A stretch of DNA of 64,000 nucleotides from Puniceicoccaceae bacterium. Its GTDB lineage: Bacteria; Verrucomicrobiota; Verrucomicrobiia; Opitutales; JAFGAQ01. A program made the translations under genes and the position numbers. Position 1 is the first letter of the stretch, and each line of letters opens with the position of its first letter. The stretch lies in the NCBI GenBank assembly GCA_028285755.1, contig JANQOQ010000014.1, positions 372,001 to 436,000 of the forward strand, in the 5' to 3' direction. The notes under the pieces were generated by a model that was not told where the DNA came from, searched no databases, and saw only the letters and a program-made list of their open reading frames with translations. Positions 4,774-64,000 of this stretch are shown here, one piece after another.

Positions 4774-5865
4774 TTAGATCAATTTTTGGTATTCCCTTAC
4801 CATTGCATCAGCGCACTGCCTCCAATGTAGCTTTTGGGTTTGTTGTTGAGCTTCTTTAAGCAATGGTTCCCGCAATTTGGAATCCGTTAGGGCAGTCATC
4901 GCTTCTGCGAGTTCTTGCGGTTGGGTAGCATCCACAAGTAATCCGCCTTTGCCCACAACTTCCGGAAGGCTGGAAGCATTATGCGCAATAACGGTGCTGC
5001 CGCAAGCCATTGCATCCAGGGCAGGCAAACCAAACCCTTCATAAAGACTTGGGTAGAGGAGTGCTACTGAGTGATAGTAAAAGGCTGCCAAGTCCTCATC
5101 CTCAAGAAAGCCCAACCATTCAATGTGTTGATCCAAATTCAGGGATGCTATGAGCTCCAGTTCGGATTCCGTTGGCTGGCTTCCGGCTACTTTCAGATTA
5201 AACGAGTTGCCTTCATCCTGACAGATCTTGAGGGCCTTTAGGGTCGATTCAAAGTTCTTATAACCCTCACGTGCACCGACATACGCAAAATAGTCGAGCG
5301 TTGGGTTTTTCATGTCCGAAGGTGGGGCTCGATCAGTTCCTGATAATGTGACTGTGATCTTATCAGAATGCCCAGGATAGTAATAATCGATGTCTGCGGC
5401 GGTATTTTCTGAGATACAGATGATCTTATCTGCCCGCTCAATTATTCGCTTTTTAGCAGAAACGGTAAACGGATCTTTTTCCTGATGCTCAGGATAACGT
5501 TCGTGAATGCAATCATGCACTGTGCAGACGATGGGCTTTTTCAACCGCTGAGGCTCGTGGCAGGATACCCAGTCGTAATAAGTCGGGTGGTAGATATCGA
5601 TTTCTTTCTTATTCCATTGATTCCATCGAAACCGATTGATCTGAAAGTCCAATTTGGGGTGGATACCACTCCGGTAAAGGTATTTGTAAATGGGTTGAGC
5701 TTTTGAGAACTCAAGATCCGGTATCGGCTTATCCAAAGTAACGGTCCAATCGCAATTATCAGCCGTATAATACATCAATCGGTCGAAGTAGGTATTTATA
5801 CCGCCGAACTTTTGGTGCTTATATATCCAGCCGTCGGAGTAAACGCGTATTCTCTTATTGGGCAC
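4774..5865 (-). CDS. Glycosyltransferase, GT4 family
   Basis: A 363-residue GT4 enzyme, among the most typical in the cluster. It has IVCTVHDCIHERYPEH mid-protein, as in mannosyl- and rhamnosyltransferases of the WbpX/WbdA kind, YFAYVGAREGYKNFE at the inter-domain hinge, and the donor site EGFGLPALDAMACGSTVIA, with Asp in the second acidic position of E-x7-E. The start is GTG at 5863-5865, overlapping the upstream gene by 11 bp. Relatives often use GDP-mannose, but specificity cannot be assigned from these motifs alone. Confidence 0.88.
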   Translation of the reverse strand: MPNKRIRVYSDGWIYKHQKFGGINTYFDRLMYYTADNCDWTVTLDKPIPDLEFSKAQPIYKYLYRSGIHPKLDFQINRFRWNQWNKKEIDIYHPTYYDWVSCHEPQRLKKPIVCTVHDCIHERYPEHQEKDPFTVSAKKRIIERADKIICISENTAADIDYYYPGHSDKITVTLSGTDRAPPSDMKNPTLDYFAYVGAREGYKNFESTLKALKICQDEGNSFNLKVAGSQPTESELELIASLNLDQHIEWLGFLEDEDLAAFYYHSVALLYPSLYEGFGLPALDAMACGSTVIAHNASSLPEVVGKGGLLVDATQPQELAEAMTALTDSKLREPLLKEAQQQTQKLHWRQCADAMVREYQKLI

Positions 5866-7099
5866 GCTGCAATATATCTACAAACTCTTTGGCTGTTTCC
5901 TGAATATCCAAATGTTCGCACGCGTAGTCCCGCATTCGTTGCCGGACGATGATAGCAATTTCTGGATTTGCCAAATAGTTTAACAGCAACTCCTTCAAAT
6001 AGGTAGGAGAATTCGTGGGGAAGATCGGTATTCCGGCATCACGGCATAACTCCCCGGCACCCCCGCTACCACTTGCAATCACCAGGCATCCGGCTGCCAT
6101 GGCTTCCTGCATGATGAGAGGAAGCCCTTCTCCGCGACTACTCGGGAAGATCAGGATATCCTGTTGACTTAGAATTTCGGGCATATCTGAGGGCTCAGCC
6201 CAGCCTGGCAGCTCTATGATGTCCCACACGTCACTATTGGCTGTGTCTGTTCGAAAACTTTTCCACCATTCTTCGGCCCATGCATTCGGAGGTCTGCCTA
6301 TTAGGTTTAAATGGAATTGATTTCTATCTTCGGCTTCCATCGAATTGAGCGCTTCGAATAATGTCTGAATACCGCGATCCGGAGTAAATCCACCTGCAAA
6401 CACAAGGCGTATGGGGCGGTGCAATTCCCATTGCCCGGGCAAACTCTGATTAATTGGAATCCCTGCATAGAGTATACGCTTGTCTTTGTATTCTATAAAC
6501 GAATCGCGGTTTTGCCATTCCTGGTAATGGGAGACGAAAATACCTTTTTTTGCCTCAATCTTGGCAGGTAGTTTTAGATTCTTGGAGATGGTCGGTGATT
6601 TCGGCAAAAAGGGCCTTATGATGTTTGGGATTCTTGAAAAACTGCCTGCCGGATTTTGCTGATGAATCTGGTACCAGGGGTGGAGAATAGCATCGGTGGT
6701 TTTGGGTGTTTTTTTTGACCAAATATCTTCGTGCCAAAATACTTGAGGTACTTCGTGCAGATGGGCAACTGCACAGATTGAAGGGCTTAAGCCATCAAGA
6801 TTGAAATGGCATACCCAATCCGGGTTCTCAGTTTTAATTATCTCTGAAAAGGCAATCGCATCTTTTTGACTTTGGATTGCCGCACTTATTTGATCACTCA
6901 ACGACTGAATTGGTTTTTGGGAATATTGTAGAATCCGATAGACTCCATTTTCATCGACTGTCTTTTGCTTTGAATGCTTGCTGGTAACGACCACGCACTC
7001 ATGATCCGACTTGAGTGCATTGACCAAATGAAATAGCCGTAACTCATAGCCGCCTTGAGTAGCGGGGGGGTAAAGGTTGCTGGCAAACAGGATTTTCAA
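5855..7099 (-). CDS. Glycosyltransferase, GT4 family
   Basis: A 414-residue GT-B enzyme. The N-terminus MKILFASNLYPPATQGGYEL carries the glycine-rich acceptor-domain loop. The C-domain contains RLVFAGGFTPDRGIQTLFEA and the E-x7-E signature in GEGLPLIMQEAMAAGCLVIA. The start is TTG at 7097-7099, overlapping the upstream TGA as TTGA, the same junction type seen at 3763-3766. An ATG alternative would cut into the first beta strand. It functions in cytoplasmic assembly of the polysaccharide or LPS chain; the sugar is unknown. Confidence 0.87.
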   Translation of the reverse strand: MKILFASNLYPPATQGGYELRLFHLVNALKSDHECVVVTSKHSKQKTVDENGVYRILQYSQKPIQSLSDQISAAIQSQKDAIAFSEIIKTENPDWVCHFNLDGLSPSICAVAHLHEVPQVFWHEDIWSKKTPKTTDAILHPWYQIHQQNPAGSFSRIPNIIRPFLPKSPTISKNLKLPAKIEAKKGIFVSHYQEWQNRDSFIEYKDKRILYAGIPINQSLPGQWELHRPIRLVFAGGFTPDRGIQTLFEALNSMEAEDRNQFHLNLIGRPPNAWAEEWWKSFRTDTANSDVWDIIELPGWAEPSDMPEILSQQDILIFPSSRGEGLPLIMQEAMAAGCLVIASGSGGAGELCRDAGIPIFPTNSPTYLKELLLNYLANPEIAIIVRQRMRDYACEHLDIQETAKEFVDILQRAQ

Positions 7100-35579: not shown

Positions 35580-36610
35580 GTGGGGAAGATTCACAGCATA
35601 AAGTAAATCTGGAGACCATTGATAAGCAGGCAAGCCATTGGTTTATGCGTATCCAAAGAGGGCTGACCCCAACTGAGCAGGATGATTTATTTGATTGGGT
35701 AGCTGAAAACCCGTTACACGGGGAAAGGCTAAACCACTATAGGCGCAATTGGAAACGGCTCGATTTAATGGCAGACTGGAAACCCGAAAATGCGGATAGG
35801 CCGAATCCGGATTTATTGGAAAGCGATACCCGGAAAGTGATTTCTTTCTGGTGGTCTATACCCATTGCTGCCTGTTTGCTATTGGGTCTTGTTTTTTGGA
35901 GCTTTTTTGACTCCGGTTCAACGATGAACCAGGAAGTAGATCTTGTTTTTGCCGAGGAAAATCGTGCGCGGTTATTTGATGGTTCCGTAGTCAAGGGAGA
36001 TGAAAACGCAATTGTATATGCGGAATACACAAGCAACAGCCGTCGCTTACATATGGTTCAGGGGAAAGCATTTTTCGATGTGGTATACGATCCCGGCAGA
36101 CCCTTTATCGTAGAAGTGAATGGAATAGAAGTAGTAGCTGTAGGAACTGCATTTAATGTAAGTTTAGAAGACGATATATTAAGAGTTATCGTTTCGGAAG
36201 GAAGAGTAGAGCTGCGAAATGTTGAAGGGCAGGTTTCTGTGGAGGAAAGTAAAGATATCCAAACCAATCCAGTTCTGGAGAGAAATCAGGCTGCGACCAT
36301 ACAGCTCAAATCTGAGCGGAAAGATGTAGCCCTTGACTCACTTTCCGAAGATGAAGCTATGTCTGAAATTACCTGGCAACATGGCCCTCTTAAGCTCGAG
36401 GGGGAAACCCTGTCCTTTATTGTTAATGAGTTCAACCGATTGAACCTTACAAAAATGGTGATAGCGGATCCGAGCATTAGTGATATGTCTATCAGTGGGT
36501 CTTTCCGTTCGGATAATGTGGAAGGGTTTGCGCGAATACTGGATCTGGCATTTCAGGTTGAGTCCACTTATGTGTCCGAATTTGATGAATATCATTTGCG
36601 GGCCAAATAG
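35576..36610 (+). CDS. FecR-type anti-sigma / signal relay protein (module 1)
   Basis: A 344-residue protein with one membrane helix (ISFWWSIPIAACLLLGLVFW) near residue 90. The cytoplasmic part has the DUF4880-like sigma-binding segment QASHWFMRIQRGLTPTEQDD. The periplasmic part has the FecR fold (RLHMVQGKAFFDVVYDPGRP, EVNGIEVVAVGTAFNV) and a DUF4974-like tail that resembles an STN domain (LSFIVNEFNRLNLTKMVIAD). It relays receptor status to the sigma factor. It overlaps the sigma gene by 4 bp. Confidence 0.92.
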   Translation: MSGEDSQHKVNLETIDKQASHWFMRIQRGLTPTEQDDLFDWVAENPLHGERLNHYRRNWKRLDLMADWKPENADRPNPDLLESDTRKVISFWWSIPIAACLLLGLVFWSFFDSGSTMNQEVDLVFAEENRARLFDGSVVKGDENAIVYAEYTSNSRRLHMVQGKAFFDVVYDPGRPFIVEVNGIEVVAVGTAFNVSLEDDILRVIVSEGRVELRNVEGQVSVEESKDIQTNPVLERNQAATIQLKSERKDVALDSLSEDEAMSEITWQHGPLKLEGETLSFIVNEFNRLNLTKMVIADPSISDMSISGSFRSDNVEGFARILDLAFQVESTYVSEFDEYHLRAK

Positions 36611-36725
36611 GGACATTATGTATTTTTCTTTTTAGAGTCATTGAGTGCTTTGTGAGCTCCACGAGCTGTGTGCAAACCTAGAATGTTATCATTTTGCAAT
36701 AAAGTCGGAAGACATGTCGATTACA

Positions 36726-36751
36726 GTAACCAAAGGGAGCCCTTTCTTTAC
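36726..36751. promoter_or_regulatory. 26-bp imperfect palindrome between fecR and the receptor gene
   Basis: The core AAAGGG-AG-CCCTTT (36732-36745) is a perfect inverted repeat, flanked symmetrically by GTAA on the left and TTAC on the right. It lies ~190 bp upstream of the receptor start. No U-tract follows. It may be an operator. Confidence 0.4.
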
Positions 36752-36839
36752 AGATAGTGCTATTCAGCTTCGCGAATCTTTATGTTCAGCTTTGTTTAAT
36801 ATATTCTAACTTATTCTTTGAGAATCATTTAAAAAACAG

Positions 36840-36907
36840 TGAGTGGATATTTGAAAATCACTCATCCTATTAGGCAAGTGACGTTATGTCTATGCTTGCC
36901 CCTAATA
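36840..36907 (+). promoter_or_regulatory. Two hairpins in the 5' leader of the module 1 receptor
   Basis: TGAGTG (36840-36845) pairs with CACTCA (36859-36864). TATTAGGCAAG (36868-36878) pairs with CTTGCCCCTAATA (36895-36907), apart from a 2-nt bulge. The second hairpin ends 36 bp before the chosen ATG at 36944. Their presence argues against translation starting at the upstream GTG at 36839 and suggests a structured leader. Confidence 0.5.
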
Positions 36908-36943
36908 GAATACTGCATTTTATATGGTTTGTTGGTCAGACGA

Positions 36944-39900
36944 ATGAAGAAACCAACATGCCTGCTTGCTTGCCTGTGTCTGTTTTTCGCGGGGGTCGCT
37001 TTTGGGGAGCAGGCGGAGATGGATTTTCAAGTATCTGCCGACAATATCGAAACCGCAATCGAGGATTTTATCGATTTTACAGGCGTAGATATCATTTACA
37101 GAAGCGAGGATATCAGAGGATTCCAAAGCAATGCAGTCTACGGGTTAATGACTCCGCTGGAAGCGTTGCAGCAAATGGTTTCAGGAATCGGGTTAGAGGT
37201 GCTCCGGGATAGTAAGACCAATTCATACGCGATCATAAGGTCTTCAAAGAATCAAGAGGACTTCTCAACTAAGAAAACGGATAAACAAACTGAATCTAAT
37301 AATACCCATAAAACCAAAGAGATGAAATTTAATAGAAAACCCTTGTCAGCAACCAACCGCATATACCGTGCTTTAATTGGAGTTTTGCTGGCTGCAAACA
37401 CGAGCGTAATTGCTCAAAATGTCACAGATGACGAGAATGTGTTGATGCTGGATGCATTTGTAGTGACCGGCCTGAGGCAACAGCTTGCTGTGGCGGCAGA
37501 AGTCGAACGCCAAAATACTACCGTTACTTCGGTACTGACCGCGGATGATGTCGGTAATTTTCCAGACCAAACCCTGGCGGAGTCCCTTTCACGGCTTCCG
37601 GGTGTATCCGTCCAGGATGAGGAGGGAGAAGGCCGTTTTATAAACATTCGCGGGATGCCCACGGATTTTGCCCAAGTCACCATTAATAATGCTGAACTTG
37701 GATCTTCTGACCCTAACGGTGATCGTTCTGTGGCTCTGGATGTGGTTCCCGGGGACCTTTTTCAACAGATAGAGGTCGGCAAATCTTTATTGCCGGATAC
37801 GGATGCAGGATCCTTTGGGGCAAAAGTCGATTTGAGACCACTCTCGGCATTTCTCCGTCCTCCTGAATTCGTAGGACGTATCTCCGTACGCAGCACATAC
37901 AGCAGTCTTGCAAAAGAGTGGGATCCCAATTTAAGAGCGAACGTGAGTAAGCAATTTCTTATGGAAGACGGTTCCCGTTTTGGGGTCGCAGCGGCTCTCA
38001 GTTATAGTTATCGAACCGTTCACGGAGACCAGTTGATTTCGACTTCAGGAAGCGGTATACGATATGCGCGGGATTATCTGACTCCGGAAGGCAGTGAAGT
38101 GCTCGCAATTCAGGAACTCGATCAACGCATGGATCGTGGCGATCGTGAGCGTATTGGAGGTACTCTTGTTCTGGATTGGGAAAACAACGACAATCTGAGG
38201 CTCCAGTTATCGGGCATTTATGGCAGGCTCGATGATAATGATATCCGTATACAGCAAGAAGTAGAATTACGGGACGCCAGTAATGGCTTTAACAGTACTG
38301 GACGTAATGAGATTTACCTGCTGGAACCCGGGCATGGAATATTTACAGATGTTGACCTGGAGCGCCAGATCGCCTTCTTCGGGGGCGTCGAAACCACTTA
38401 TGCGATTCACTTTGAAGGAGATTATACCTTCGGTGATAATGATGAATGGGTGCTGTTCTTTGGTGCTGATTATTCCAGAAATGATTATGAAATACCTACA
38501 GAAGCCAATCGTGGCCAATGGCGTGAGCGCGATCAGATCGTGGAAGCCTGGTGGGGTAAGGACGATGCTGTTTACCGCGTATTAGGACGTGGGGATCTGA
38601 ATAGCGGCGATATTGAAGACCTTGAGTTTGGCAGGTTACCTACAGCGGAAGATCTTGCGTTCTCGCAGGTAGGTACTATCGAAGAAGATCGTTTTGACGA
38701 GATTCTTTCATTCAATGCAGACCTGCAGCGCGAAATTACGTTGTTTGATCGCCTTTGGACAATCAAGGCCGGAGTCAAGCACCGAAAACGTGAGCGGGGT
38801 TTTGTGCGCGGTGAATTGTTTCAGGGGGTCAGTGCCAGTGATATTGAGGAACTTGGGTTTCCCAGTAACCTGAGTACCGTACCGACGATTGTGCCTGAAA
38901 CTGCCTTTGATATCAATGGGGGTATACCGGGTGGTGCTGTTTTTCCCAATGTGGGCTGGGCTCGCAATTTTCTTGCTGAAACTCGCCAGGCCTTTGGTAT
39001 TGAGCCTAACACTTTGCGACGCGACTACGAAGCAGGGGAAGAGATCATGGCAAGTTATTTAATGGCTACCATCGATCTTACGAGTAAGTTGCAAATGATC
39101 ATCGGGGCTCGTTTAGAAAGTACCGACTACACTGCAACTGGCTTAACCAGAAACACCATTGAGCTGGAGCGCCTGGATCCCAATAATCCTAATGAAACGA
39201 TTGTAGAAACTTTGTCCTCTACGAATGAAGTGACTGACCATGAACACAGTTATGACGAACTACTTCCCGGCCTGTTTTTCGTATGGGACATCAGTGATGA
39301 AATCGTGGCGCGATTTAGCTACTCCAAGGGGATGGTGCGCCCGAGTTTCGGTGATTCCAACGGTCTGGTCCGTAATGATTGGGAGTTTGTTGAGCGCAGT
39401 GCGGATATTGATGGTCAAAGCACGCAGTTTGTAACGGTGAATCTTGCCGGAACCGATTATGAGGTGTCAGCACAGGATTATACGATTGAATCCCGCGGGG
39501 GTAACCCTTTCCTCGATCCGATTACCGCCGATCAGTTCGACGCGAATCTGGGCTGGTATCCAAACTCGCACAGTAATTTGACGATTGCGGTATATCACAA
39601 GGATTTGACCGATTATATTATCGGCGTGAATACAAGAGATGCGGATATCATCCAACAATTGGGCGGTCGTGCCATTGATCCATTATCCGGGCTTGCCCCA
39701 ACAAGATACTCAAGAAATATCAATGTGTCGAGCGCCAGTTTATCGGGTTTAGAGCTTGCGGGGCGTTATGGGTTTGTGAATCTGCCCGGGTTCCTGAGTA
39801 ACTTCTTCGTAGCGGGAAATGCGGCTTGGCTGAGTGGTTCCACCAGTACGCCGTTCATTGACAATGGCCAGGATTTTGATTTACCCGGTTTGGCAGACTT

Positions 39901-40216
39901 TATTGGTAATATCTCACTGGCCTACGAAAACAACCGGTTCAGCTTTCAGGTTTCCGCCCGTTACCGCACCGAGCGTGTAAGAGGCCGAAATAGTAATGAA
40001 CCTGAGAAAAACACGTTTGACGACAGCGATTTCCGCCTGGGCGCGAATGTTCGTTACGATATCAACGACACATTCCGGGTGTTTGCAAACGTGCAGAACC
40101 TGAGTAACGAAAATTCAATCCGTTTCTTTCAAGGTGACGACGTTTCAGGACCTCTCATCAATCGCCGTGCCGACTTCGGCCGCACTTGGCAGGTGGGCGT
40201 CGATGCACGCTTCTAA
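36944..40216 (+). CDS. STN-domain TonB-dependent transducer/receptor (module 1)
   Basis: A ~1090-residue outer-membrane protein. A signal peptide (MKKPTCLLACLCLFFAGVAF) is followed by an STN signalling domain at ~25-99 (MDFQVSADNIETAIEDFIDF to SYAIIRS) and a hydrophilic linker. At residue 127 there is a second signal-like segment (MKFNRKPLSATNRIYRALIG, then VLLAANTSVIAQN). The TonB-box-like LMLDAFVVTG, the plug (ADDVGNFPDQTLAESLSRLP) and the barrel, ending RTWQVGVDARF, follow. Ligand occupancy would be signalled through STN to FecR. The very large extracellular loops suggest an oligosaccharide or other bulky ligand. No SusD gene accompanies it. Confidence 0.9.
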   Translation: MKKPTCLLACLCLFFAGVAFGEQAEMDFQVSADNIETAIEDFIDFTGVDIIYRSEDIRGFQSNAVYGLMTPLEALQQMVSGIGLEVLRDSKTNSYAIIRSSKNQEDFSTKKTDKQTESNNTHKTKEMKFNRKPLSATNRIYRALIGVLLAANTSVIAQNVTDDENVLMLDAFVVTGLRQQLAVAAEVERQNTTVTSVLTADDVGNFPDQTLAESLSRLPGVSVQDEEGEGRFINIRGMPTDFAQVTINNAELGSSDPNGDRSVALDVVPGDLFQQIEVGKSLLPDTDAGSFGAKVDLRPLSAFLRPPEFVGRISVRSTYSSLAKEWDPNLRANVSKQFLMEDGSRFGVAAALSYSYRTVHGDQLISTSGSGIRYARDYLTPEGSEVLAIQELDQRMDRGDRERIGGTLVLDWENNDNLRLQLSGIYGRLDDNDIRIQQEVELRDASNGFNSTGRNEIYLLEPGHGIFTDVDLERQIAFFGGVETTYAIHFEGDYTFGDNDEWVLFFGADYSRNDYEIPTEANRGQWRERDQIVEAWWGKDDAVYRVLGRGDLNSGDIEDLEFGRLPTAEDLAFSQVGTIEEDRFDEILSFNADLQREITLFDRLWTIKAGVKHRKRERGFVRGELFQGVSASDIEELGFPSNLSTVPTIVPETAFDINGGIPGGAVFPNVGWARNFLAETRQAFGIEPNTLRRDYEAGEEIMASYLMATIDLTSKLQMIIGARLESTDYTATGLTRNTIELERLDPNNPNETIVETLSSTNEVTDHEHSYDELLPGLFFVWDISDEIVARFSYSKGMVRPSFGDSNGLVRNDWEFVERSADIDGQSTQFVTVNLAGTDYEVSAQDYTIESRGGNPFLDPITADQFDANLGWYPNSHSNLTIAVYHKDLTDYIIGVNTRDADIIQQLGGRAIDPLSGLAPTRYSRNINVSSASLSGLELAGRYGFVNLPGFLSNFFVAGNAAWLSGSTSTPFIDNGQDFDLPGLADFIGNISLAYENNRFSFQVSARYRTERVRGRNSNEPEKNTFDDSDFRLGANVRYDINDTFRVFANVQNLSNENSIRFFQGDDVSGPLINRRADFGRTWQVGVDARF

Positions 40217-40256
40217 TCGAAGTATGTTGAACCCATATATTTGATCCTCTCACCTC

Positions 40257-40269
40257 GATAATCGTTATC
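40257..40269. promoter_or_regulatory. GATAA-TCG-TTATC palindrome
   Basis: A perfect 5-bp inverted repeat with a 3-bp centre just downstream of the module 1 receptor. It resembles part of a Fur-type operator, but the surrounding bases do not extend the match to the 19-bp consensus. Function is unassigned. Confidence 0.3.
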
Positions 40270-40308
40270 ACAAAGGGCAAAATGCATGCCTGCTTTCGCC
40301 CTTTGTGA
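40268..40308 (+). terminator. Strong hairpin after the module 1 receptor
   Basis: TCACAAAGGGC and GCCCTTTGTGA form a perfect 11-bp stem with a 19-nt loop. It begins 52 bp after the receptor stop and most likely ends its transcript. The following bases are pyrimidine-rich rather than a clean T-run, so it may be a 3' stabilising or weak-U terminator. Confidence 0.7.
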
Positions 40309-40446
40309 GTTCCTCCTCAAGCGAATCATGATTAAATAATTTAGCGTGAAAAGAGTAATTATTTGGAATGCAATTCAGGCTAGGTTTGGATGAAGCTGGA
40401 TGCTGATTATTAACAGAATAGAAAATCGGAAACTGTAATATTAACT

Positions 40447-41088
40447 ATGAAATCAATAATAATAGTTGGGGCTGGCGAAGGCATTTCCAAAGCAGTCGCT
40501 ATCAAATTTGGGAAGGAAGGCTTTAGTGTAGGTCTCGTCAGTAGAAATGGAGCAAAGCTGGAGAAATTGTCAGAAGAATTGAAAGAACTGGGTATAAACA
40601 CCGAATACCTGGTGGCAGACGCATCCAATTTGGTTGAATTGAGAAAGGCTACTAAAGAGTTGGCGGCTGCATTGCCGAACCTTGAAGTGCTGCATTACAA
40701 TGCGGCATCATTAAGGCCCTTGTATTTGCTGGATAATGATGTGAGTGAAGTAGTGAAAGACCTTCATGTAGGTTTGTTTGGAGCCATTGCAGTTATACAA
40801 GAACTGAAAGCTACTTTATCCGATAATAGAGGAACCATTTTATTGACGGGGGGCGGCTTTGCCGATTACCCCTCTGCAGAATACGGCTCGGTATCTTTAG
40901 CCAAAGCCGGTATCAAAAACCTGGCACTTCAATTACGTTCCCCATTATTGGAAGATGATATTTCCATAACGGCAATTAGTGTAAATGGGAGGGTGGACCC
41001 TGATGATCCCAAGCACAACCCAACGTCAATAAGTAACGTTTTTTGGGATGCTTACTCAGGGAAAGCTGAAGCGGTAATGCACTACTAA
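40447..41088 (+). CDS. Short-chain dehydrogenase/reductase family protein
   Basis: A 213-residue Rossmann protein. The nucleotide motif is IIIVGAGEGISKAVAIKFG (G-x-G-x-G-I), DASN sits at the adenine-binding place and NAAS at the N-A-G position. The active-site region reads YGSVSLAKAGIKNLALQLR, with Tyr and Lys seven residues apart instead of the classical four and no clear catalytic Ser. It is therefore an atypical SDR, and its oxidoreductase activity is uncertain. It stands alone between hairpin-rich gaps. Confidence 0.8.
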   Translation: MKSIIIVGAGEGISKAVAIKFGKEGFSVGLVSRNGAKLEKLSEELKELGINTEYLVADASNLVELRKATKELAAALPNLEVLHYNAASLRPLYLLDNDVSEVVKDLHVGLFGAIAVIQELKATLSDNRGTILLTGGGFADYPSAEYGSVSLAKAGIKNLALQLRSPLLEDDISITAISVNGRVDPDDPKHNPTSISNVFWDAYSGKAEAVMHY

Positions 41089-41288
41089 GTTAGGCGATTG
41101 CCTGCTCTTTGAGATTCAATTAATAGAGAGTGATTTTTTGAGGGATGCAGCTTTGTAAGTGACTTACAAATGGGCACTCAAAATTTACAAGCCGTTTAGT
41201 ATGCTCGGGGATACTACTGATTATATGCTACATGTAGAAATGCACAACCTTTTGATTATTAGACTATTGAGAGCCCTTAAACAGATAG

Positions 41289-41366
41289 TTTAGTCTTTCG
41301 GTACCGGCTATACGATCCGGACTAAATAACCTCGTAAGTTAATTTTATTCAGATACTTATGAGGTT
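41289..41366 (+). ncRNA. Two adjacent strong stem-loops, possible structured RNA
   Basis: TTTAGTC (41289-41295) pairs with GACTAAA (41320-41326), with a further CGG/CCG inner stem. Directly after it AACCTCGTAAGT (41328-41339) pairs with ACTTATGAGGTT (41355-41366) through 12 positions including one G-U, around a 15-nt AU-rich loop. The G-U pair makes the fold better as plus-strand RNA than as DNA. No family was recognised; it could also be a recombination or protein-binding site. Confidence 0.4.
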
Positions 41367-41369
41367 GAA

Positions 41370-41398
41370 TGGTATACCGGTCGTGACTCGAACCCGAC
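41370..41398 (-). other. tRNA 3'-end-like remnant (possible attachment-site relic)
   Basis: Read on the minus strand, a T-arm-like TCGGG-TTCGAGT-CACGA (four of five stem pairs) is followed by seven bases, one discriminator-like A and CCA, which is exactly the spacing of a tRNA 3' end. The matching acceptor 5' strand and anticodon arm are absent, so this is not a functional tRNA. A chance match cannot be ruled out. Confidence 0.3.
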
Positions 41399-41744
41399 AA
41401 TAAAAGTATACAAGCTGTTGATAATCAAGATTGTTGTAGAATTGAAGATGTCGAGCATACAGCAATAGATTCACAAAGATTTGTCTCAGATGATCCTGTA
41501 TTGGCGCAAATAGTCAAAAATCAGAGCAGCTGAATGTTAATCAAAAAAAGATTATCATGACGGTGCTTAGCTTGATTTAATGGTTTGTGTGAATACATCC
41601 GCTTAAATAAATTCATTAGTCAGTGAGCAGCGGTTAGGTAGTCTGGCTGATTAAAGTATTGAAAAGTAGGGTTACCTTAATTTTGAAAAAACCTATAGTA
41701 ACTATCTGCATGCTGGTGCGACTCACTTAAGAGTAGTTGTATCT

Positions 41745-42104
41745 ATGCTAAATTTATCCACCATCACATCAGTGTTTCCCCGGTTAATATTACCTGTTTT
41801 GGGGTTGATTTTTTTACTGACGAACGGTTGTTTTTCCGACTCAGAATCGCTGGCTTCTGAAGAAGCTTTAAGTAAAAAGTTTAATATAGAATCGGGAGAT
41901 GCTATTATCTCATTAAGGATTGCAGCTGAGCAGGCCGATGCTGAGTTCCTATACAGTGTTCAAGATGTTGAGGGAATACAAACGAATGCCGTTAATGGAT
42001 ATTATACCTTGGATGATGCGTTAGCCATCATGCTTTCTGATACGCCCTTAGTCTTTATCAGCGATGATTCAAGAGGTTATTCGATAAGAACTAAACAAAA
42101 ATGA
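41745..42104 (+). CDS. Stand-alone STN-domain exported protein
   Basis: A 119-residue protein consisting only of a signal segment (LILPVLGLIFLLTNGC) and an STN (secretin/TonB short N-terminal) domain: SKKFNIESGDAIISLRIAAE, AEFLYSVQDVEGIQTNAV, GYYTLDDALAIML, then a C-terminal GYSIRT strand. The Cys after the hydrophobic stretch hints at a lipoprotein, but N-G at -2/-1 is a poor lipobox. STN domains usually sit at the N-terminus of a receptor. Here it is free, 40 bp upstream of the module 2 sigma gene, and may compete for or relay the FecR signal. Confidence 0.75.
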   Translation: MLNLSTITSVFPRLILPVLGLIFLLTNGCFSDSESLASEEALSKKFNIESGDAIISLRIAAEQADAEFLYSVQDVEGIQTNAVNGYYTLDDALAIMLSDTPLVFISDDSRGYSIRTKQK

Positions 42105-42144
42105 CCGTATATTATAAATAAGCAAAAGCATTATTTTATACTCA

Positions 42145-42663
42145 ATGAAGGAAGAAGACATACAGTGGTATCATAGTAGCGTGAAACCTCATGAGGAGAT
42201 GATCCGCCACTGGATTAAAAGCAAGTACGGTAAATACTGTGATGTGGATGATGTCATGCAAGAAGCACTTTTGCAACTATTCAAGGCCAAGGAAGGTAAG
42301 GTCATCGAGTCTCCCAAGGCTTATTTTTTTTCTGTCGCCCGCAATATCGCCGTCAGCCAGATTCGTAAATCCCGTGTGAGGCTTGCCGAATCGATCTACG
42401 ACGAGTCTGCATTACAGATTATAGATGATGATGTTTGCGTGGAGGAAGAGGCGGCGCGCAATCATGAACTGGAGATTTTGACTAAGGCGATTCAATCGTT
42501 GCCGGAACGTTGCCAGTGTGTATTTACTTTAAGTAAGGTTTACGGCATGAGCTATAAGAACATCGCGAAAGAGTTGGGAATCTCATTTCACACTGTAACC
42601 AATCAGATAGCGACCGGAATTTCCAAAATTACGGACTATATGCACCGACACGGGCGTAATTAA
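42145..42663 (+). CDS. ECF sigma factor, FecI-like (module 2)
   Basis: A 172-residue protein with sigma region 2 (CDVDDVMQEALLQLFKAKEG; SPKAYFFSVARNIAVSQIRK) and region 4 (SLPERCQCVFTLSKVYGMSY with HTH NIAKELGISFHTVTN). It lies between the free STN gene (40 bp upstream) and fecR (11 bp downstream). It is the probable inducer of the module 2 receptor and perhaps of the sulfatase cluster behind it. Confidence 0.93.
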   Translation: MKEEDIQWYHSSVKPHEEMIRHWIKSKYGKYCDVDDVMQEALLQLFKAKEGKVIESPKAYFFSVARNIAVSQIRKSRVRLAESIYDESALQIIDDDVCVEEEAARNHELEILTKAIQSLPERCQCVFTLSKVYGMSYKNIAKELGISFHTVTNQIATGISKITDYMHRHGRN

Positions 42664-42674
42664 AAATTTGAGTT

Positions 42675-43712
42675 ATGAGGGATATGGAAAGAAACGAATT
42701 TGAGGAACAGCGGATTGACGCTGAGGCAGCAAGCTGGGTATCCAAGCGCATCAAGGGGCTGACCGCCGAAGAGCAGGATGCATTTTTTGAATGGATGGCT
42801 GCCGACCCCAGGCATAGTGCCTGGTATAAGCGGCACATGAAAAGCTGGAAGCAGTTGGACTTGCTTGCACAGTGGAAGCCCGAGCACAGCGAAAAGCCAA
42901 ACCCCTACCTGCTGAAACAGAAGATGAGATGGCACTCACTTCCGTTATGGCTGGGAATGGCGGCTACGCTTATATTAGGCTTTTGGTTGCTTTTAAATTC
43001 AACAATGTTGCAAAATAGGGGTGACGACCCCACCATTAAGAATCTTGTGGCGGAAACTTATCAGGAGCATCTGCTTTCGGATGGCTCTGTCGTGGGAATG
43101 AGGGAAGGTGCCGCCTTGAAAGTGGATTTTAGCAAGAATGAACGCAAGGTTGAACTGGTCTCGAGTGAGGCACATTTCGACGTGAAAGCTGATCCTGAGA
43201 ATCCTTTCATAGTCAGAGCCAGGGGAGTTGAATACCGCGCTATCGGTACTGCTTTCAGTGTCAGTATTCGTGAGAATCAGGTAGAGTTACTAGTGACAGA
43301 GGGAACGGTTGTTATGGCTCGGGTTGAAGACCCGATTGCACTGCAGAGTTCTGAAACATCCTTTGAGGTGGAAGTAACCGCCGGGCAGCGTACGGTCGCC
43401 TTTGCAGAGCCCCAGAATGAGGGTTATAAACTCTACGAAGTAAATGATAACGAAATTGATCAACTACTGAAATGGAAGCCGAAATCGCTAAGTTTCGATC
43501 AGGTTTCGCTGCAAGAGGTGGTGGATGAGTTTAATGCAAGAAACCGAGTCCAAATAGTAATTCTTAACTCCGATTTAAAACAGGTAAGAGTGGTTGCTTC
43601 GTTTCATAGCGCGAACGTCGATAAGCTGCTTACTCTACTTGAAACAACGATGGATATCCAGGCAAGTTACGCAGAGGAGGACAGAATCCTGTTGGACTAT
43701 GAAACCCCCTAG
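42675..43712 (+). CDS. FecR-type anti-sigma / signal relay protein (module 2)
   Basis: A 345-residue protein with a cytoplasmic DUF4880-like segment (AASWVSKRIKGLTAEEQDAF), one membrane helix (LWLGMAATLILGFWLLLNST), a periplasmic FecR fold (VELVSSEAHFDVKADPENPF; GVEYRAIGTAFSVSI) and a DUF4974/STN-like tail (LSFDQVSLQEVVDEFNARNR). It is the partner of the preceding sigma factor. A second in-frame ATG at 42684 is also possible as start. Its tail would receive the signal from an STN domain, of which two candidates exist here: the free one and that of the receptor. Confidence 0.92.
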   Translation: MRDMERNEFEEQRIDAEAASWVSKRIKGLTAEEQDAFFEWMAADPRHSAWYKRHMKSWKQLDLLAQWKPEHSEKPNPYLLKQKMRWHSLPLWLGMAATLILGFWLLLNSTMLQNRGDDPTIKNLVAETYQEHLLSDGSVVGMREGAALKVDFSKNERKVELVSSEAHFDVKADPENPFIVRARGVEYRAIGTAFSVSIRENQVELLVTEGTVVMARVEDPIALQSSETSFEVEVTAGQRTVAFAEPQNEGYKLYEVNDNEIDQLLKWKPKSLSFDQVSLQEVVDEFNARNRVQIVILNSDLKQVRVVASFHSANVDKLLTLLETTMDIQASYAEEDRILLDYETP

Positions 43713-43832
43713 ATACCCTTCAGTGTAATGGGTAATTCCCAAGTATTAAAAGAACACCCCTGAAAAACGACACCCATAAAAATAATTAACCGATGTTATA
43801 GTAATATTTGCTTTGCTGAGGCGACACATGCA

Positions 43833-46800
43833 TTGAAGCATGTCTACACTACGTTACCCAGAAAACAGTTTAAACCCCTTAGATACATTAAGTTCACTCT
43901 GTTTTATTGGTGCGTATGGACTGCATGTTTTGACAGTCAAGGTGTATCTGCGCGCATATCGCCAGGCAAAGTTTATATGTCTGTCCCGCAAGGTCGTGCA
44001 ATAGAGACTTTACAGGATGCGGCTGAACAATCGCAGGTGGAAATTTTTTACCGAGCAGATGTCGTTGAAGGGTTTTATACGCACCCGGTAGAGGGTGAGT
44101 ATGAGCCCATAGAAGCTTTCAGGCTTATGTTAATAGGTACGCCGCTCGCCGTTTTCAGTGATGAGAAAACCGGCGTTTACGTGATTAAGGAGGGAGTTAT
44201 TAACGACCTCCCTGAAATCGAACCAAACCCTAAAAACAATAAGCAAATGAAAATTGATAACCAACAACGCAATAACTTGTTTTCCCGGTTAATGAGGGGA
44301 ATAAGCGCTGTTATGATTGCAGGTGCTACGGCAAACGCAAATGCTCAGGATGAACTTGAGGATGAGGATGTCTACTTACTGAGCCCTTTTGTGGTGGATG
44401 CCTCTGAGGACAGCGGATACTACGCAACGAATACACTGGCGGGCACCCGTCTGAAGACCAGCCTGCGGGATGTAGGATCAGCACTATCGGTATACACCAA
44501 TGAATTTCTTGGAGATATCGGTGCATCCAGCGCAGGTGAGCTATTGACTTATACCACCAACACTGAGGTGGGTGGTCTATTGGGTAATTTCTCTTCCGGA
44601 ACTGCTGGAGATGCATTCGTGCGGGTAGATACTCAGCGCAGGAATCCCCAGTTTGCAACGCGGGTGCGGGGCCTTTCGGGTGCGGACTTGACCCGTGACT
44701 ACTTTCTGACGGTCATACCGTTGGACAGCTACAATACGGATCGTGTGGAAATTAACCGTGGACCCAATGCGATATTATTCGGACTAGGCAGTGCCGGGGG
44801 GATCATTAACAATGGTCTGTCCAAGGCTCAGTTTGCAAATAAGACTTTTGTGGAAACCCGTGTCTTTGGTGAAGGTGGAGCCCGTGGGGTCCTTGATATC
44901 AATCGGGAAGTGATTGAGGGCAAGTTGGCTGTTCGCCTGATCGGCTTGGCCGAAGAGGAGCAGTTTGTACAGGAGCCTACCTACGAGCAGGACAACCGCC
45001 TGTATACCAATGTGCTTTATAAGCCTTTGCAGAATACGACCATTCGCTTTACCGGTGAAACGGGGCGTATCGAGGCGATCCGGCCCAATCCGATATCCCC
45101 GGTGGACGCTTTATCCCACTGGTTTGATTTGGGAAAGCCTACTTGGGATCCTACCTTGCCCGCGTCGGCGCAAAACACCTTTGGCGGAGCGATTGCGCAT
45201 CCGCAAACCAATCGCGGTATTTCAATGATCCGGGATAATAGTGGCATTTTCCCATACGGAGTTCCGAACCAGGTGAGGGGCCGCCCTGTTAGTGAGATGC
45301 GTTCTACCCGGTCGCTTAATCGTACTCCGGTATCCAGCTTGCCTGCGGATCACCCGTTAGCGGGGGTTACCGCGCCACTGAAGCACCAGGGGTTTACGGA
45401 TTTGAATACATTTAATTTCCGCGATTATCTCCTGTCCGGAGAGGCGAACCGGCAGTTTCAGCGCTTTAACGCGATCAATTTCACAGTCGAGCAGACTTTT
45501 CTGGATCAACATCTCGGTGTAGAGCTTGCCTATGATAAGCAGGATTATGACGATCATTATATTGATAACTTCGGCAGTCAGAATCGTAATGTTATCTATA
45601 TTGATATGAATACGGTGCTTCCGGACGGAGTGGCCAATCCTAATTTCGGACGTCCTTTCCTGAGCTTTCAATCCAGAAACTCTACCAACAATGAGGGTTG
45701 GAATGATCGTGAAGCTGTGAGGGCTACGGTGTTTGCCGAGTGGGATATGGCGGACGTGATTGACGGTTGGGGCAAATGGCTGGGACGCCACGTGGCCACC
45801 GGCTTTTTTAACACTCAGACCGTGGATTCATTCTCTTCGGGTATCGCGTATGCATGGGAAGGGGAAAACGCAAACACGCTGTCGCCGCGTTTAACAGACT
45901 TTCCGCGCCGGGTAGCCACCTACTATTACATCGGCGATTCTATTGCCAATGCGCAGTCTATCGATGATGTGAAGATTACCGGAGTTCCCAATATCGCCCC
46001 GGAAGCGTTTTGGGATTTCGGAGGTCCGGTTCGTGCGAAGTTGTTTAACTCCAATGGAGACTTGGTGGAACAGGATTTAACTCCGGCTATGTATCGTAAT
46101 AGCGGAAGCATCACCCGTAACACAGTAGATTCTTACGCGGCGGTTTTGCAGAGTCATTGGTTCAGCGATACGATCGTGACCATAGTAGGCTGGAGAAAAG
46201 ATGAATCCGAATCTTACCTGTCAGATGTTGGACGCTTCCCAGACAATTCGATCGATCTCAGCACCCTTGCGCTGCGTGAGGATCCGAGCCTTGAGGCCGC
46301 TGGCGAAAATTTCACCTACAGTATTGTGGCACACTTGCCTGACTCCTGGAAAGAAAAGATGCCTTGGGGGATGGATATCAGTTTGCATTACAATGAATCC
46401 GAAAACTTCCGTCCGGCATTACGCCGAAACATTTTTAATGAGCCGATTGCTCCTCCTTCGGGCCGGACGACCGAGTATGGGTTTACCCTGTCGGCTCAGG
46501 AAAATAAATACGTGCTCAAAGTAAATTGGTATGAGACTTCCACGCAGAATGAGACTGCGAGCTTCAATGGAGCCGGATTCCTGAACAATCTGGAGCTGGA
46601 AACGATTATAGCATGGAATCGTACGGGTAGTATGGGTGGCTTTGATGCCGACGGCCGTTATCAGACTCTTCTCTTAACCGGTGTTGATCCGACTACGGGT
46701 GAGCGTATTGGCAACGGTATTCCTCAAAATATTCTGGATGCCTGGAGGTTTAATATCGTGACTGATCCTGAGACCGGCTTCCGGGATGGGGATTATCTGA

Positions 46801-47486
46801 ACCCGGGAGTTAACGATATCACCAACGTGGTTTCCGAGGGTATTGAGTTTGAAGGCATTATCAATCCAACCAATAATTGGCGAATTGCCTTTAATGCTTC
46901 GAAACAAGAAGCGGTCCGCAGCAATACCAACCCCTTTACCGCAGAGTGGTTGGAATTTCGCAAACCTGTCTTTGATGCGGTCAGCCATTTGATATGGAGG
47001 CCTGACCTGAATGGAACCCAAACCTTTGGGGAGCGGTTGGAGGAGTTTGGTACCATCCCGCTTGCACAGGCGCAAAATCTGGATGGTACGGTGACTCCCG
47101 AGCTGCGTGAGTGGCGTTTTAATCTGATCAGCAACTACCAGTTTTCTGAAGGTCCTTTGGATGGTTTCGGATTCGGGGGTGCTGTGCGCTGGCAGGATGA
47201 TGTGGCTATCGGGTTTCGTCAGTTTCGTGATGAGCAGGGCACAGTCATTGTAGATACCGGTACTCCGTATTTTGGTCCGGCTGAGACAAATGTGGACGTA
47301 TGGTTCGGCTATGAGCGACCCATATTCGACGGTAAAGTCGACTGGAAAATTCAGCTGAATATTCGTAACATTAATACGAGTGATGACGATCTCATCCCCA
47401 TTAATACCCAGCCGAATGGGGTAGTTTCCCAGGTTAGAGTAGCTCCGCCCAGAACCTGGTTTGTGACGAATACATTCAGTTTCTAA
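43833..47486 (+). CDS. STN-domain TonB-dependent transducer/receptor (module 2)
   Basis: A 1217-residue outer-membrane protein. A hydrophobic leader (KFTLFYWCVWTACF) is followed by an STN domain at ~45-118 (SVPQGRAIETLQDAAEQSQV to GVYVIK). At Met139 a second signal-like segment (MKIDNQQRNNLFSRLMRGIS, ending ATANANAQD) precedes the TonB-box-like LLSPFVVDAS, the plug (LRDVGSALSVYTNEFLGDIG; VEINRGPNAILFGLGSAGGI) and the barrel, which ends TWFVTNTFSF. The start is TTG at 43833; the nearest ATG upstream is out of frame and hits TGA at once. It is followed by a strong terminator and then the catabolic cluster. Confidence 0.9.
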   Translation: MKHVYTTLPRKQFKPLRYIKFTLFYWCVWTACFDSQGVSARISPGKVYMSVPQGRAIETLQDAAEQSQVEIFYRADVVEGFYTHPVEGEYEPIEAFRLMLIGTPLAVFSDEKTGVYVIKEGVINDLPEIEPNPKNNKQMKIDNQQRNNLFSRLMRGISAVMIAGATANANAQDELEDEDVYLLSPFVVDASEDSGYYATNTLAGTRLKTSLRDVGSALSVYTNEFLGDIGASSAGELLTYTTNTEVGGLLGNFSSGTAGDAFVRVDTQRRNPQFATRVRGLSGADLTRDYFLTVIPLDSYNTDRVEINRGPNAILFGLGSAGGIINNGLSKAQFANKTFVETRVFGEGGARGVLDINREVIEGKLAVRLIGLAEEEQFVQEPTYEQDNRLYTNVLYKPLQNTTIRFTGETGRIEAIRPNPISPVDALSHWFDLGKPTWDPTLPASAQNTFGGAIAHPQTNRGISMIRDNSGIFPYGVPNQVRGRPVSEMRSTRSLNRTPVSSLPADHPLAGVTAPLKHQGFTDLNTFNFRDYLLSGEANRQFQRFNAINFTVEQTFLDQHLGVELAYDKQDYDDHYIDNFGSQNRNVIYIDMNTVLPDGVANPNFGRPFLSFQSRNSTNNEGWNDREAVRATVFAEWDMADVIDGWGKWLGRHVATGFFNTQTVDSFSSGIAYAWEGENANTLSPRLTDFPRRVATYYYIGDSIANAQSIDDVKITGVPNIAPEAFWDFGGPVRAKLFNSNGDLVEQDLTPAMYRNSGSITRNTVDSYAAVLQSHWFSDTIVTIVGWRKDESESYLSDVGRFPDNSIDLSTLALREDPSLEAAGENFTYSIVAHLPDSWKEKMPWGMDISLHYNESENFRPALRRNIFNEPIAPPSGRTTEYGFTLSAQENKYVLKVNWYETSTQNETASFNGAGFLNNLELETIIAWNRTGSMGGFDADGRYQTLLLTGVDPTTGERIGNGIPQNILDAWRFNIVTDPETGFRDGDYLNPGVNDITNVVSEGIEFEGIINPTNNWRIAFNASKQEAVRSNTNPFTAEWLEFRKPVFDAVSHLIWRPDLNGTQTFGERLEEFGTIPLAQAQNLDGTVTPELREWRFNLISNYQFSEGPLDGFGFGGAVRWQDDVAIGFRQFRDEQGTVIVDTGTPYFGPAETNVDVWFGYERPIFDGKVDWKIQLNIRNINTSDDDLIPINTQPNGVVSQVRVAPPRTWFVTNTFSF

Positions 47487-47523
47487 TCATTTTGGGGTGT
47501 AAAAAAATGTAGTTCGCAAGAAC

Positions 47524-47567
47524 GCGCCGGGTTTACTGAAAGTCTCGTGGAAGCCCGGCGCATTTTT
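47524..47567 (+). terminator. Strong intrinsic terminator after the module 2 receptor
   Basis: GCGCCGGGTTT (47524-47534) pairs with AAGCCCGGCGC (47551-47561), 11 bp with one G-U, and is followed by ATTTTT. It lies 38 bp after the receptor stop and separates the receptor transcript from the sulfatase cluster. It also argues that the first sulfatase starts at 47607, not at the upstream in-frame start at 47547. Confidence 0.9.
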
Positions 47568-47606
47568 CCACAAAATCACAAAAAGCTAAGGAGCAAGGGG
47601 AAATCG

Positions 47607-49055
47607 ATGTTTAAGAGTTTTAGCGTTGTAGGCGGATTTAGTGTGCCTTCGCAGACCGTTTTTATTTTTGGGGTCATGTTTGCTCTTCTTGGCAGTTTGC
47701 AAATGGCATCAGCCCAAGCGGCAGATACAGCGAAGCCGAATATAGTTCTCATTCTGACCGATGACATGGGGTATGGGGACGTCGGTATTTACGGGCATCC
47801 GACTATTAAGACCCCACATATCGACTCACTCGCCATTGGCGGCCAAAAGTGGACGAGTTTCTATGTGGCTTCCAGCGTTTGCACACCGAGCCGGGCCGCA
47901 TTGATGACAGGCAGGATGCCTATACGCAACGGCATGTGCAGCAATGTAAGACGTGTTTTGTGGCAGTCTTCCAAAGGAGGGTTGCAGCCTTCGGAAGTAA
48001 CGATGGCCGAATCTTTGCAAGCGTCCGGCTATGCGACCGCTTGCATAGGCAAGTGGCATTTGGGGCATAGCGAAGCGAAGTATTTACCCACATCGCAGGG
48101 CTTCGATTATTACTACGGTATTCCCTACAGCAACGATATGGATAAAACGCAGACCATCACCAAGGAGGATTATCTGAACCCCCGAATCGGGCATTATAAT
48201 GTTCCTTTATTGGAAAATGAGAGTATCGTTGAACGCCCGGTGGACCAAACCACGATCACCCAACGCTACACAGCAAAGGCGGTTGAATTTATACGGGATC
48301 GTGCAGAGAGGCCTTTCTTTTTATTTCTCTCCCACAGTATGCCGCATGCGCCCCTGTTTGCTTCGCAGGAGTATTTGGGGAAAAGCGAGCGCGGTATTTA
48401 CGGGGATGTGATCGAGGAGATTGACTGGAGCGTTGGTGAGGTCGTCCGCACCCTTGACGAGGAGGGGTTAACCGAGAATACGCTCGTCATTTTTACGTCG
48501 GATAACGGGCCATGGATGATGCTCGACCAGCACGGTGGCTCTTCGGGTCTTCTGAGAGGTGGCAAGGGCGAAACCTGGGAGGGCGGTTATCGGGTGCCTG
48601 CAATTTTTTCTTGGCCGGGCAGAATAGAGCCGGGGGTGATCGGGGAGCTAGGTTCTACGGTAGATTTATTTAAGACGTTTTCTACAATTACCGGTTGTGC
48701 CTACCCGGATGATCGGGTGATGGACGGTTATGACTTATCCGCAACACTTTTGAAAGCTGAGAAAAGCCCGCGGGAAGTGATCTGGTACTATCAGGGTCAG
48801 GATTTACAGGCAGTGCGTATGGGTGACTATAAAGTGATCTTTAGCCTGAATGAGTACGTTGGATTTCGTGAGAAAAAAACAACCATTTTCCAAAAAGCGC
48901 TCGTGTATAATCTGAGTGTGGATCCTGCGGAGCGGTATAACCTGGCAGCCACGCATAGTAGTGTCATCGAAAAAGCAAGGGGGTTGATAGGAGAACACCG
49001 GGACAGTCTGGGAGAGATCTTTGATTACCTGGCTCCCTTACCTGAAGATCACTGA
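47607..49055 (+). CDS. Secreted sulfatase 1 (C-T-P-S-R type)
   Basis: A 482-residue alkaline-phosphatase-superfamily S1 sulfatase with a signal peptide ending near SAQA. The metal site [19 protein letters not shown] and the modification motif [13 protein letters not shown] are present; the Cys becomes formylglycine. [10 protein letters not shown] and the later [10 protein letters not shown] supply further active-site His, Lys and Asp/Asn. It is an arylsulfatase-A-like carbohydrate sulfatase; the position desulfated is unknown. AAGGAG lies 14-19 bases before the ATG and a closer GGGG sits 7-10 bases before it. It is 10 bp upstream of the GH36-like gene. Confidence 0.95.
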
Positions 49056-61959: not shown

Positions 61960-64000
61960 ATGCTCAATTACTGAGCTTTCTCCTGAGCTTGCTTGTTTTG
62001 TTTTTGGAGCCACTTCATGGAGACAGCGAAACACCCAAACCTTTCAACTTACCGGAAGGCAGGGCAATAGAGACCTTACGAAAAGCTGCGCTACAGGGCG
62101 AAATCCAAGTCATTTTTTGGGATTCTGTAGTCGAAGGCGTTATGACCAATGCTATACAGGGAAGTTATCTTCCGGGGGCCGCATTGGAAATCATGCTGGC
62201 AGGTACCGGTCTCGAATTCGCTCAGGCAAATCGCAATGATGCTTATGTCATCAGGCAAATCCAAAGCGAGGGCGAAATCTACGGCAGTGACGATACAACC
62301 AACACAACTAAGTTAAATACTGAAAAAAAACCCGATTCTGAAATGAATACAATAAAGAATAATTGGTTAAAGTCACTTGCCGCCGTACTAAGTCTGGGAA
62401 TCGCATATACTCCCAATACGTCGTTTGCCCAGAACCCTGATGAGGGTGAACCGTTTGAACTGCCTGCATTTGTGGTCGTCACTGAAGAGCAGACGGGCTA
62501 CCTGGCTGCGAATGTCTATAGTGGAACCCGGACCCGGCAATTACTGCGGGATTTGCCGAAGACCATCAATGTTGTTACCGCCGATTTTTTGGACGATCTG
62601 TCCATTTTTGATCTTGCGGAGTCGACCCGTTATAGCAGTGGTATTATCCCTCATGCCAGTGAGAATGCGATCTTCAATGAAAATGTATATACAATCCGCG
62701 GATTTCGCACAAACATCCACTCCCGCGAAGGGGTAACCCGGCTCATCGGGCCCTCGAATTCGGCCGGCATCGAGCGCGTAGAAATCGTTAAAGGTCCATC
62801 AAGTTTGCTGTATGGGCAGATATCTCCTGCGGGAACGGTAAACTACATTATGAAACGACCCCTCGGGCGTAAACATGCTGAAGTAGGCGTGTCTATCGGC
62901 AGTTGGGAAAACTATCGGGCTACCTTGGATGTCGGGAATAGTTTTGGCACGAGCGAGGCGTCATGGAGGTTAAATGCGGCATTTCAGGATACCAATACAT
63001 GGCGCGACTTTGAGAACTTTCAAAACACTTATCTCGCACCTTCTTTCAACACACGCTTCAATAATGGGCGCACCGTATTGACTGTTTGGGCTGAGTGGTT
63101 GGATCGGCAAGGGTCACCCGGATCGATCCCTGTTCGCAGAGTAGACAACACAGGCCCGGCAGACGGGTTGCCCTGGTCTTTCAATGCAAATGGGCCGGAT
63201 GGCGTTCGCGATCAAAGGCGCTACAATATCACTGCAGAACTCGTACAGGATATTACCTCATGGGTGGATTTCCGTTTCTTCTATGATAGGGCCAGTGATG
63301 AGATTTACGAGAATACTGCTCGGGTTCTTCGTATTGATCCTAATGGCGAAACCATGAATCGTAATGCAACATTAGATCAAATCGAAAGGGAGTTTGATAC
63401 CATACAGGCATCTTTGCTTTTCGAGCGCCAAATCGGTGAGTTTAACTTAAACTTTCTTGTAGGCTATGACCGCACGGAAAATGAACAGGATCAGGTTCGT
63501 TTCGATAACCGCAGTCTCCCCAGAATCAATTGGAGAAACCCCACACCTGAGCAGTATGCTTACGGAGATCCTTCAGACTATACCCGTTTGCGCGCTGATC
63601 GCAAAAACCAGGGGGTGACCTCTGCGTGGTTTGGGACTCTGCATGGAAGCGCGTTTGACGATCGCCTTCACTTCCTGTTTGGAGTGCGTGATGACAGTCA
63701 GGAGGCTGAGGTTCTTAATCGAGCCAGGGGAGATACGGGTTTCACTCAAACAGCCGACCGGGGCGCTACTGTAGAGCAATATGGACTGTCTTACCGCATT
63801 ACACCCAATATTAGCATATACGGGAGTTTTGCGGAATCTTACTTGCCGCCGGGACGGCCCACCAACAACGACGGAACCGTAACATTTGGTCCACAGGTGG
63901 GTGAGGGCACTGATATCGGATTCAAATTCAGTTTATTTGAACAAAGGGTCTCGGGTACCGTAGCCTGGTTTGATATCGATAACACGAATATCGTACGTTT
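61960..64000 (+). CDS. STN-domain TonB-dependent transducer/receptor (module 3), partial, start disrupted
   Basis: The frame open from 61962 to the right edge encodes a hydrophobic leader (AQLLSFLLSLLVLFLEPLHG), an STN domain (NLPEGRAIETLRKAALQGEI, then VIFWDSVVEGVMTNAI) and a linker. At Met 62343 a second signal-like segment (NWLKSLAAVLSLGIAY, ending SFAQN) precedes the TonB-box-like ELPAFVVVTE, the plug (VEIVKGPSSLLYGQISPAGT) and part of the barrel. The only ATG with a good ribosome site (61960, after GGAGGAG) is out of frame and meets TGA after four codons; one extra base would join it to the STN frame. The C-terminus is outside the window. Confidence 0.75.

Follow-up and report, generated by a model that had tools for sequence, protein, structure and literature searches.

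The 64,000-nucleotide stretch of Puniceicoccaceae DNA analysed here (the window) contains, at 41745–42104 on the forward strand, a gene for a stand-alone STN domain protein (free STN) placed directly before a sigma factor and FecR gene pair. The free STN probably serves as a small integral regulator, with a brake as the likeliest role, rather than being debris, because some related bacteria have comparable genes in comparable positions. The direct support comprises the gene itself, its lipobox sequence, its recurrence beside FecR genes, its predicted fold and the constraint seen in one pair of relatives. From these and from known systems we infer that the protein binds FecR and that the effect of binding is to restrain signalling.

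The free STN gene and its module

The gene begins with ATG and encodes 119 amino acids before its stop codon. Its product consists of a hydrophobic signal peptide (residues 1–28) ending at Cys29 (codon 41829–41831), a spacer, and an STN domain covering approximately residues 44–117. The protein scores 29.7 bits against PF07660 (E 5.7e-7), above the curated Pfam cut-off of 28.4, and adopts the STN fold in its predicted structure, which places it in the STN domain family. The stop is separated from the sigma gene start at 42145 by 40 bp, bearing out the initial annotation, which had described a 119-residue exported STN protein at this distance upstream. An AlphaFold2 model was obtained with a mean pLDDT of 82.4, the ten-residue blocks from residue 41 onwards having means of at least 90. 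The top match to this model in the PDB is 6ovm_B, the STN of PupB bound to PupR, and the profile and model of the free STN both match the STN domains of PupB, FpvA, PupA and FecA. No Secretin domain was matched in the protein at E 0.001, and the plug and barrel that define a TonB-dependent transducer are absent both from the protein and from the surroundings of its gene.

A hydrophobic N-terminus ending in a lipobox cysteine is the sequence signature of a lipoprotein, and the free STN has it. The cysteine is invariant in all 22 aligned free STNs and is the sole invariant residue outside the STN domain; a 23rd free STN (G064:C104) also has the cysteine, in the lipobox LTGC. The free STN therefore looks like a lipoprotein, with presumed lipidation and a presumed membrane of residence. 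A loose lipobox pattern also fits the first signal peptide of 8 of 37 receptors, that of the module's own receptor included, so that lipidation of some receptor STNs is conceivable.

Downstream of the free STN, on the same strand, lie an ECF sigma factor that is related to FecI and scores below that model's cut-off (42145–42663), a FecR anti-sigma regulator (42675–43712) and the module's TonB-dependent receptor (43833–47486). The sigma and FecR genes are 11 bp apart, and 120 bp separate FecR from the receptor. With an ECF sigma factor, a FecR containing both FecR and FecR_C domains, and an STN-bearing receptor, this is a FecI/FecR cell-surface signalling module, with a putative signal route from the receptor STN through FecR to sigma. 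The FecR has a C-terminal STN-like subdomain and an invariant G-T pair, kept in all 41 aligned sequences, which corresponds to the self-cleavage site of FoxR-type regulators (PMC11637429). The receptor has its own signal peptide and, as first annotated, its own STN (approximately 43971–44192); Pfam does not report this STN, which a profile of free STNs recovers at E 4.6e-15. Its outer TTG start (43833) is a guess, as there is no in-frame ATG 5′ of the STN.

The 40-bp spacing suggests that the free STN is co-expressed with sigma and FecR. Promoter-like sites were fewer than in shuffled sequences (2 versus 6.8) and terminator-like sites about equal in number (3 versus 2.6). Rfam gave zero matches in 36500–48000 and no tRNA was found within the window. 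The ~650 bp 5′ of the free STN (41089–41744) contain no likely gene and have no Rfam, tRNA or receptor match. Near the module receptor are two sulfatases (PF00884; 47547–49055 and 49065–51152) and a melibiase-like protein (PF02065; 58298–59878), on account of which the module may serve the uptake of a sulfated glycan.

Recurrence and origins of free STNs

The genome searched (4.25 Mb) is assigned to the order Opitutales (Verrucomicrobiota) through its nearest named relatives. It has 38 FecR genes, with frames of 333–382 amino acids. PF07660 identified five short STN frames, and a reading of the gaps between FecR and receptor genes added three; a profile built from these eight found no further free STN in the genome. 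All eight adjoin FecR genes (8 of 38), and at the other 30 FecR genes no adjoining free STN was found. We distinguish two layouts, sigma–FecR–STN–receptor (type A) and STN–sigma–FecR–receptor (type B). Seven of the eight are type A, and 41745–42104 is the one type B. The only PF07660 matches in this genome, out of 32, that fall outside receptors and free STNs are the two in a secretin (PF00263; L035:7244–9442, equivalent to G000:C2:870243–872441).

A search of 132 sampled genomes of the order at a threshold of E 1e-10 gave matches in 18, among which free STNs were read in six (G000, G002, G004, G010, G031 and G064); contig-end frames aside, none was found in the other 126. Uncounted short frames lie at contig ends in G098, G088, G031:C48 and G064 (C12 and C202), among which the three that were read (G088:C174, G064:C12 and G031:C48) resemble cut receptors. 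The frame on G031:C48 (L171, positions 1–346) has a partial STN, a linker, the beginning of a second signal-peptide-like stretch and a stop, and is possibly a truncated receptor. Named Opitutaceae MAGs contribute two further type A cases (L187 and L188). The total is thus 23 free STNs from eight Opitutales genomes, 19 of type A and four of type B, and the 15 beyond this genome also adjoin FecR genes.

The four type B genes are divided between two families: the one described here and G004:C133 belong to the same family, G010:C49 and G064:C118 to another. Homologues at this position in relatives, whose absence would have counted against the initial annotation, are thus present in three cases. 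A scan with an alignment of sigma factors gave at least 74 loci, with sigma factors counted as related at 43% identity or more. Where a named locus has such a sigma, the type B free STN is seen in L174 (the record of G004), and L176–L180 show none 5′ of the sigma gene; L175 is cut too near the sigma for a free STN to be read.

A tree was built from 77 STN domains over 84 columns, with unsettled bootstrap support. Its 16 type A free STNs fall into two adjacent, weakly supported groups (of 5 and 11) with zero receptor STNs inside, and the receptor STNs that partner them form one 20-row group (96/82), which also contains the G004:C133 type B free STN and three other receptor STNs. The G010 type B free STN pairs with the receptor STN of its own module (100/75) and forms a clade with the three type B receptors in the tree (96/92). 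Type B free STNs are thus scattered and do not make up one group, and the position of the 41745–42104 protein among the receptor STNs is not settled by the tree. Five changes of label are needed, three of them forced by well-supported branches; more than one origin of free STNs is likely, one gain with losses being the alternative. The case for common descent of the 41745–42104 gene and G004:C133 is made by position, sigma, FecR and receptor, not by the STN tree. The type B proteins of G010 and G064 are 70% identical, and because their pN is 0.175 against a pS of 0.818 (saturated), the free STN protein is constrained in this one pair.

Internal signal-peptide-like segments in receptors

The receptors of this genome have a further, unexpected feature. 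Of 77 plug matches, 67 were examined: 37 with a FecR gene no more than 3.5 kb upstream and 30 without. The difference between 37 linked receptors and 38 FecR genes reflects one receptor without a listed plug match, and one of the 37 has its FecR on the opposite strand. In 36 of the 37, the STN is followed by an in-frame Met ahead of a hydrophobic stretch and an acidic start as in other receptors, the exception being receptor C3:30835. Receptors without FecR start at the place equivalent to this internal segment. The window's three FecR-linked receptors (36839–40216, 43833–47486, and 61989–64000, which continues beyond the window) all have an STN and then an internal ATG with a signal-peptide-like segment, located on the forward strand at 37322–37414 (module 1), 44247–44345 (the module described here) and 62343–62429 (module 3). 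The segment at 44247–44345 ends A-N-A before Q, and an AACCC leader motif (44226–44230) lies 21 nt 5′ of its ATG.

Placement of the internal Met was manual in three receptors; in the rest it is the most distant Met lying no more than 22 residues ahead of the hydrophobic stretch. Of the 36 internal Mets, 33 combine hydrophobicity with an A-x-A-Q-like site, a combination seen at none of 257 further Mets of these genes; in this comparison the choice of Met favours the 36. Independently of that choice, a profile of the N-termini of 27 non-FecR receptors matched internally in 37 of 37 cases, 36 via the signal-peptide part and 22 from the first position, with the mature segment contributing to the score; reversed and shuffled controls gave no match to it at E 0.05. 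The profile and the comparisons of Mets and of hydrophobicity leave aside three non-FecR receptors whose N-terminus is of another kind. Compared with true signal peptides, the internal stretches have a lower hydrophobicity (2.05 versus 2.46, p 6.5e-5).

The extended leader AACCC[AT][ACG]A was looked for within 36 nt 5′ of start codons. It occurs at 23 of 36 internal ATGs and, in receptors without FecR, at 7 of 30 starts; none of 206 other predicted starts has it, nor does any of the first ATGs of 42 receptor-like frames. These counts are descriptive, given that the motif was defined after these leaders had been viewed. The AACCC leader is found in the three phases 18, 5 and 3 times, encoding N-P or K-P, and the phases do not distinguish nucleotide from residue conservation. 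Among receptor ATGs, a Shine-Dalgarno core precedes 1 of the 36 internal and 2 of the 30 external; among other starts, 29 of 206 have one. The same scoring applied elsewhere detected the internal segment in 32 of 57 STN receptors from other Verrucomicrobiota and in 1 of 31 from Proteobacteria (L212, Pseudoduganella rivuli). Within those Verrucomicrobiota, family f13 scored 0 of 14, although one of its receptors, in G016 (L137), resembles the segment by eye.

The internal segment may be a second start, a cleavage site or a mere fusion scar. Its occurrence in 36 of 37 FecR-linked receptors means that the receptor STN may be generally separable. We extend this tentatively, and with more doubt than confidence, to a scheme for this Opitutales branch in which the STN would be generally detachable: genes would yield both STN-bearing and STN-less receptors, by internal starts or signal peptidase cleavage, some modules would add a lipid-anchored STN, and FecR would read a competing pool of STNs in trans and not a tethered domain.

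Proposed FecR docking, candidate roles and known systems

The C-terminal STN-like subdomain of FecR was modelled with a mean pLDDT of 88.7. By profile alignment, its S-G-x-F strand aligns with PupR residues 286–289, which pair with PupB (PMC7186176), and the next residue with PupR 290, a position aligning between PupB-contacting residues of PupR; we matched the PupR and PupB residue numbers to the published ones ourselves. Trp occupies this position in 20 of the 95 distinct FecRs; the 74 others all lack it, one gapped row being set aside. The 20 are the FecRs of all 19 type A modules and that of G010:C35, whereas the FecR of the module described here has His at this position (His311, codon 43605–43607). 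The G010:C35 FecR (L134, approximately 5290–6414, reverse strand), with its type A Trp, is followed by a 250-bp gap without a free STN, and the receptor there is also without a second signal peptide. On the facing STN strand, E or D is present in 15 of 16 type A free STNs (16 of the 19 being covered), S or G in 15 of 16 of their partner receptors, and D, E or Q in 33 of 40 other receptors, the facing position having been set between PupB His72 and Leu74 by a weak STN–PupB alignment (E 0.17). These type A differences in FecR and STN are suggestive of a re-tuned interface, though ancestry alone could explain the Trp class, as type A looks like one lineage.

Surplus free signalling domain in the periplasm is reported to block Fec induction (PMC9249621) and to inhibit Fox, Fiu, Iut and Hxu signalling, and the FoxA signalling domain to block proteolysis of FoxR (PMC11637429). 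The initial annotation had offered two families of explanation, a competitor, decoy or adaptor on the one hand and a relic of a lost receptor on the other; in the light of these reports the first remains the best. Our preferred reading, to which we assign a probability of roughly 0.55, is that the lipid-held free STN binds FecR at its C-terminal STN-like subdomain, shields it from proteases and acts as a brake or threshold. Export would bring the protein to the periplasmic side of a membrane, where a lipid on Cys29 would anchor it. It would occupy the face of the subdomain that the receptor STN also uses, preserving the fold of FecR and denying access to the proteases that release sigma, so that a loaded receptor must overcome it. 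Made together with sigma and FecR, it would therefore be a standing brake, given that surplus free STN blocks signalling and that FecR keeps its G-T pair.

The free STN could instead relay in trans, as an activator or adaptor that carries to FecR the state of a receptor made or matured without its STN by an internal start or cleavage. The internal Met and signal-peptide-like segment after the STN in 36 of 37 FecR-linked receptors would suit this, as would the equivalent start of receptors lacking FecR, but the FecR-linked receptors have complete STNs in their own genes and known surplus free STN is inhibitory, making a relay unlikely. It is quite unlikely that the protein senses in the manner of VreA, taking input from another protein or the envelope apart from the module receptor: the gene order is that of vreA–vreI–vreR, yet the free STN has no second domain for input and its module has a full receptor with an STN.

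Two further explanations would deny the protein a role. A duplicated STN without distinct function, carried along with the module, might be expected to have the patchy distribution observed (6 of 132 genomes, and none 5′ of the related sigma genes in L176–L180); since all 23 divergent copies retain the cysteine, more than one origin is probable and one pair is constrained, we consider this very unlikely. A relic of a receptor that lost its plug and barrel would account for an STN that falls among receptor STNs in the tree, and the free STN may descend from one. However, comparison of 41089–42144 with receptors gave matches to the signal-peptide and STN part only, the remainder reaching E 0.066 or worse, and no receptor remnant was found in the 40-bp gap to sigma (42105–42144); the attached degraded receptor envisaged by the relic reading was thus not found around the gene. 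As the lipobox is kept, the layout recurs in three relatives and one pair is constrained, we reject the relic reading as extremely unlikely.

How an outer-membrane receptor reaches the inner-membrane FecR is described as still debated, as is the question of a tethered or a free mode of action for the STN (PMC11637429). A separately encoded, apparently membrane-anchored STN beside FecR is a natural experiment on the free STN as a physiological brake, and the second signal peptide inside receptors opens the same question of tethered or free STN to test. In the open-access literature, no stand-alone STN lipoprotein is named in the titles and abstract openings of the matches listed, and nothing was found on two or internal signal peptides with TonB receptors.

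Three known systems invite comparison. The STN of PupB and the C-terminal domain of PupR (PDB 6ovm; PMC7186176) share the fold and, by alignment, the kind of docking pair, although the PupB STN is part of a receptor. The cleaved FoxA signalling domain is likewise a free periplasmic STN; bound to a FecR-type regulator, it shields that regulator from proteolysis (PMC11637429). A protease (CtpA) is proposed to release it from its receptor, whereas the free STN described here has its own gene and a lipobox. The closest known system is VreA (PA0674) of the Pseudomonas aeruginosa PUMA3 system, also described as a barrel-less STN protein encoded just before an ECF sigma factor and a FecR-type regulator (PMC2729926, PMC4971064). 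In these accounts VreA has a C-terminal TolA/TonB-like domain, which is absent from the free STN, and is mostly soluble, whereas the free STN has a lipobox. It is also the receptor-like component of its own operon, with no partner receptor, while the free STN shares its module with a full STN receptor. VreA is reported to be dispensable for sigma-VreI-dependent expression under phosphate starvation; strong regulation is therefore not to be expected of every free STN. Thus, VreA provides the precedent for a barrel-less STN before a sigma/regulator pair, and what appears to be new is a lipoprotein that consists of an STN alone and is accompanied by a complete STN receptor.
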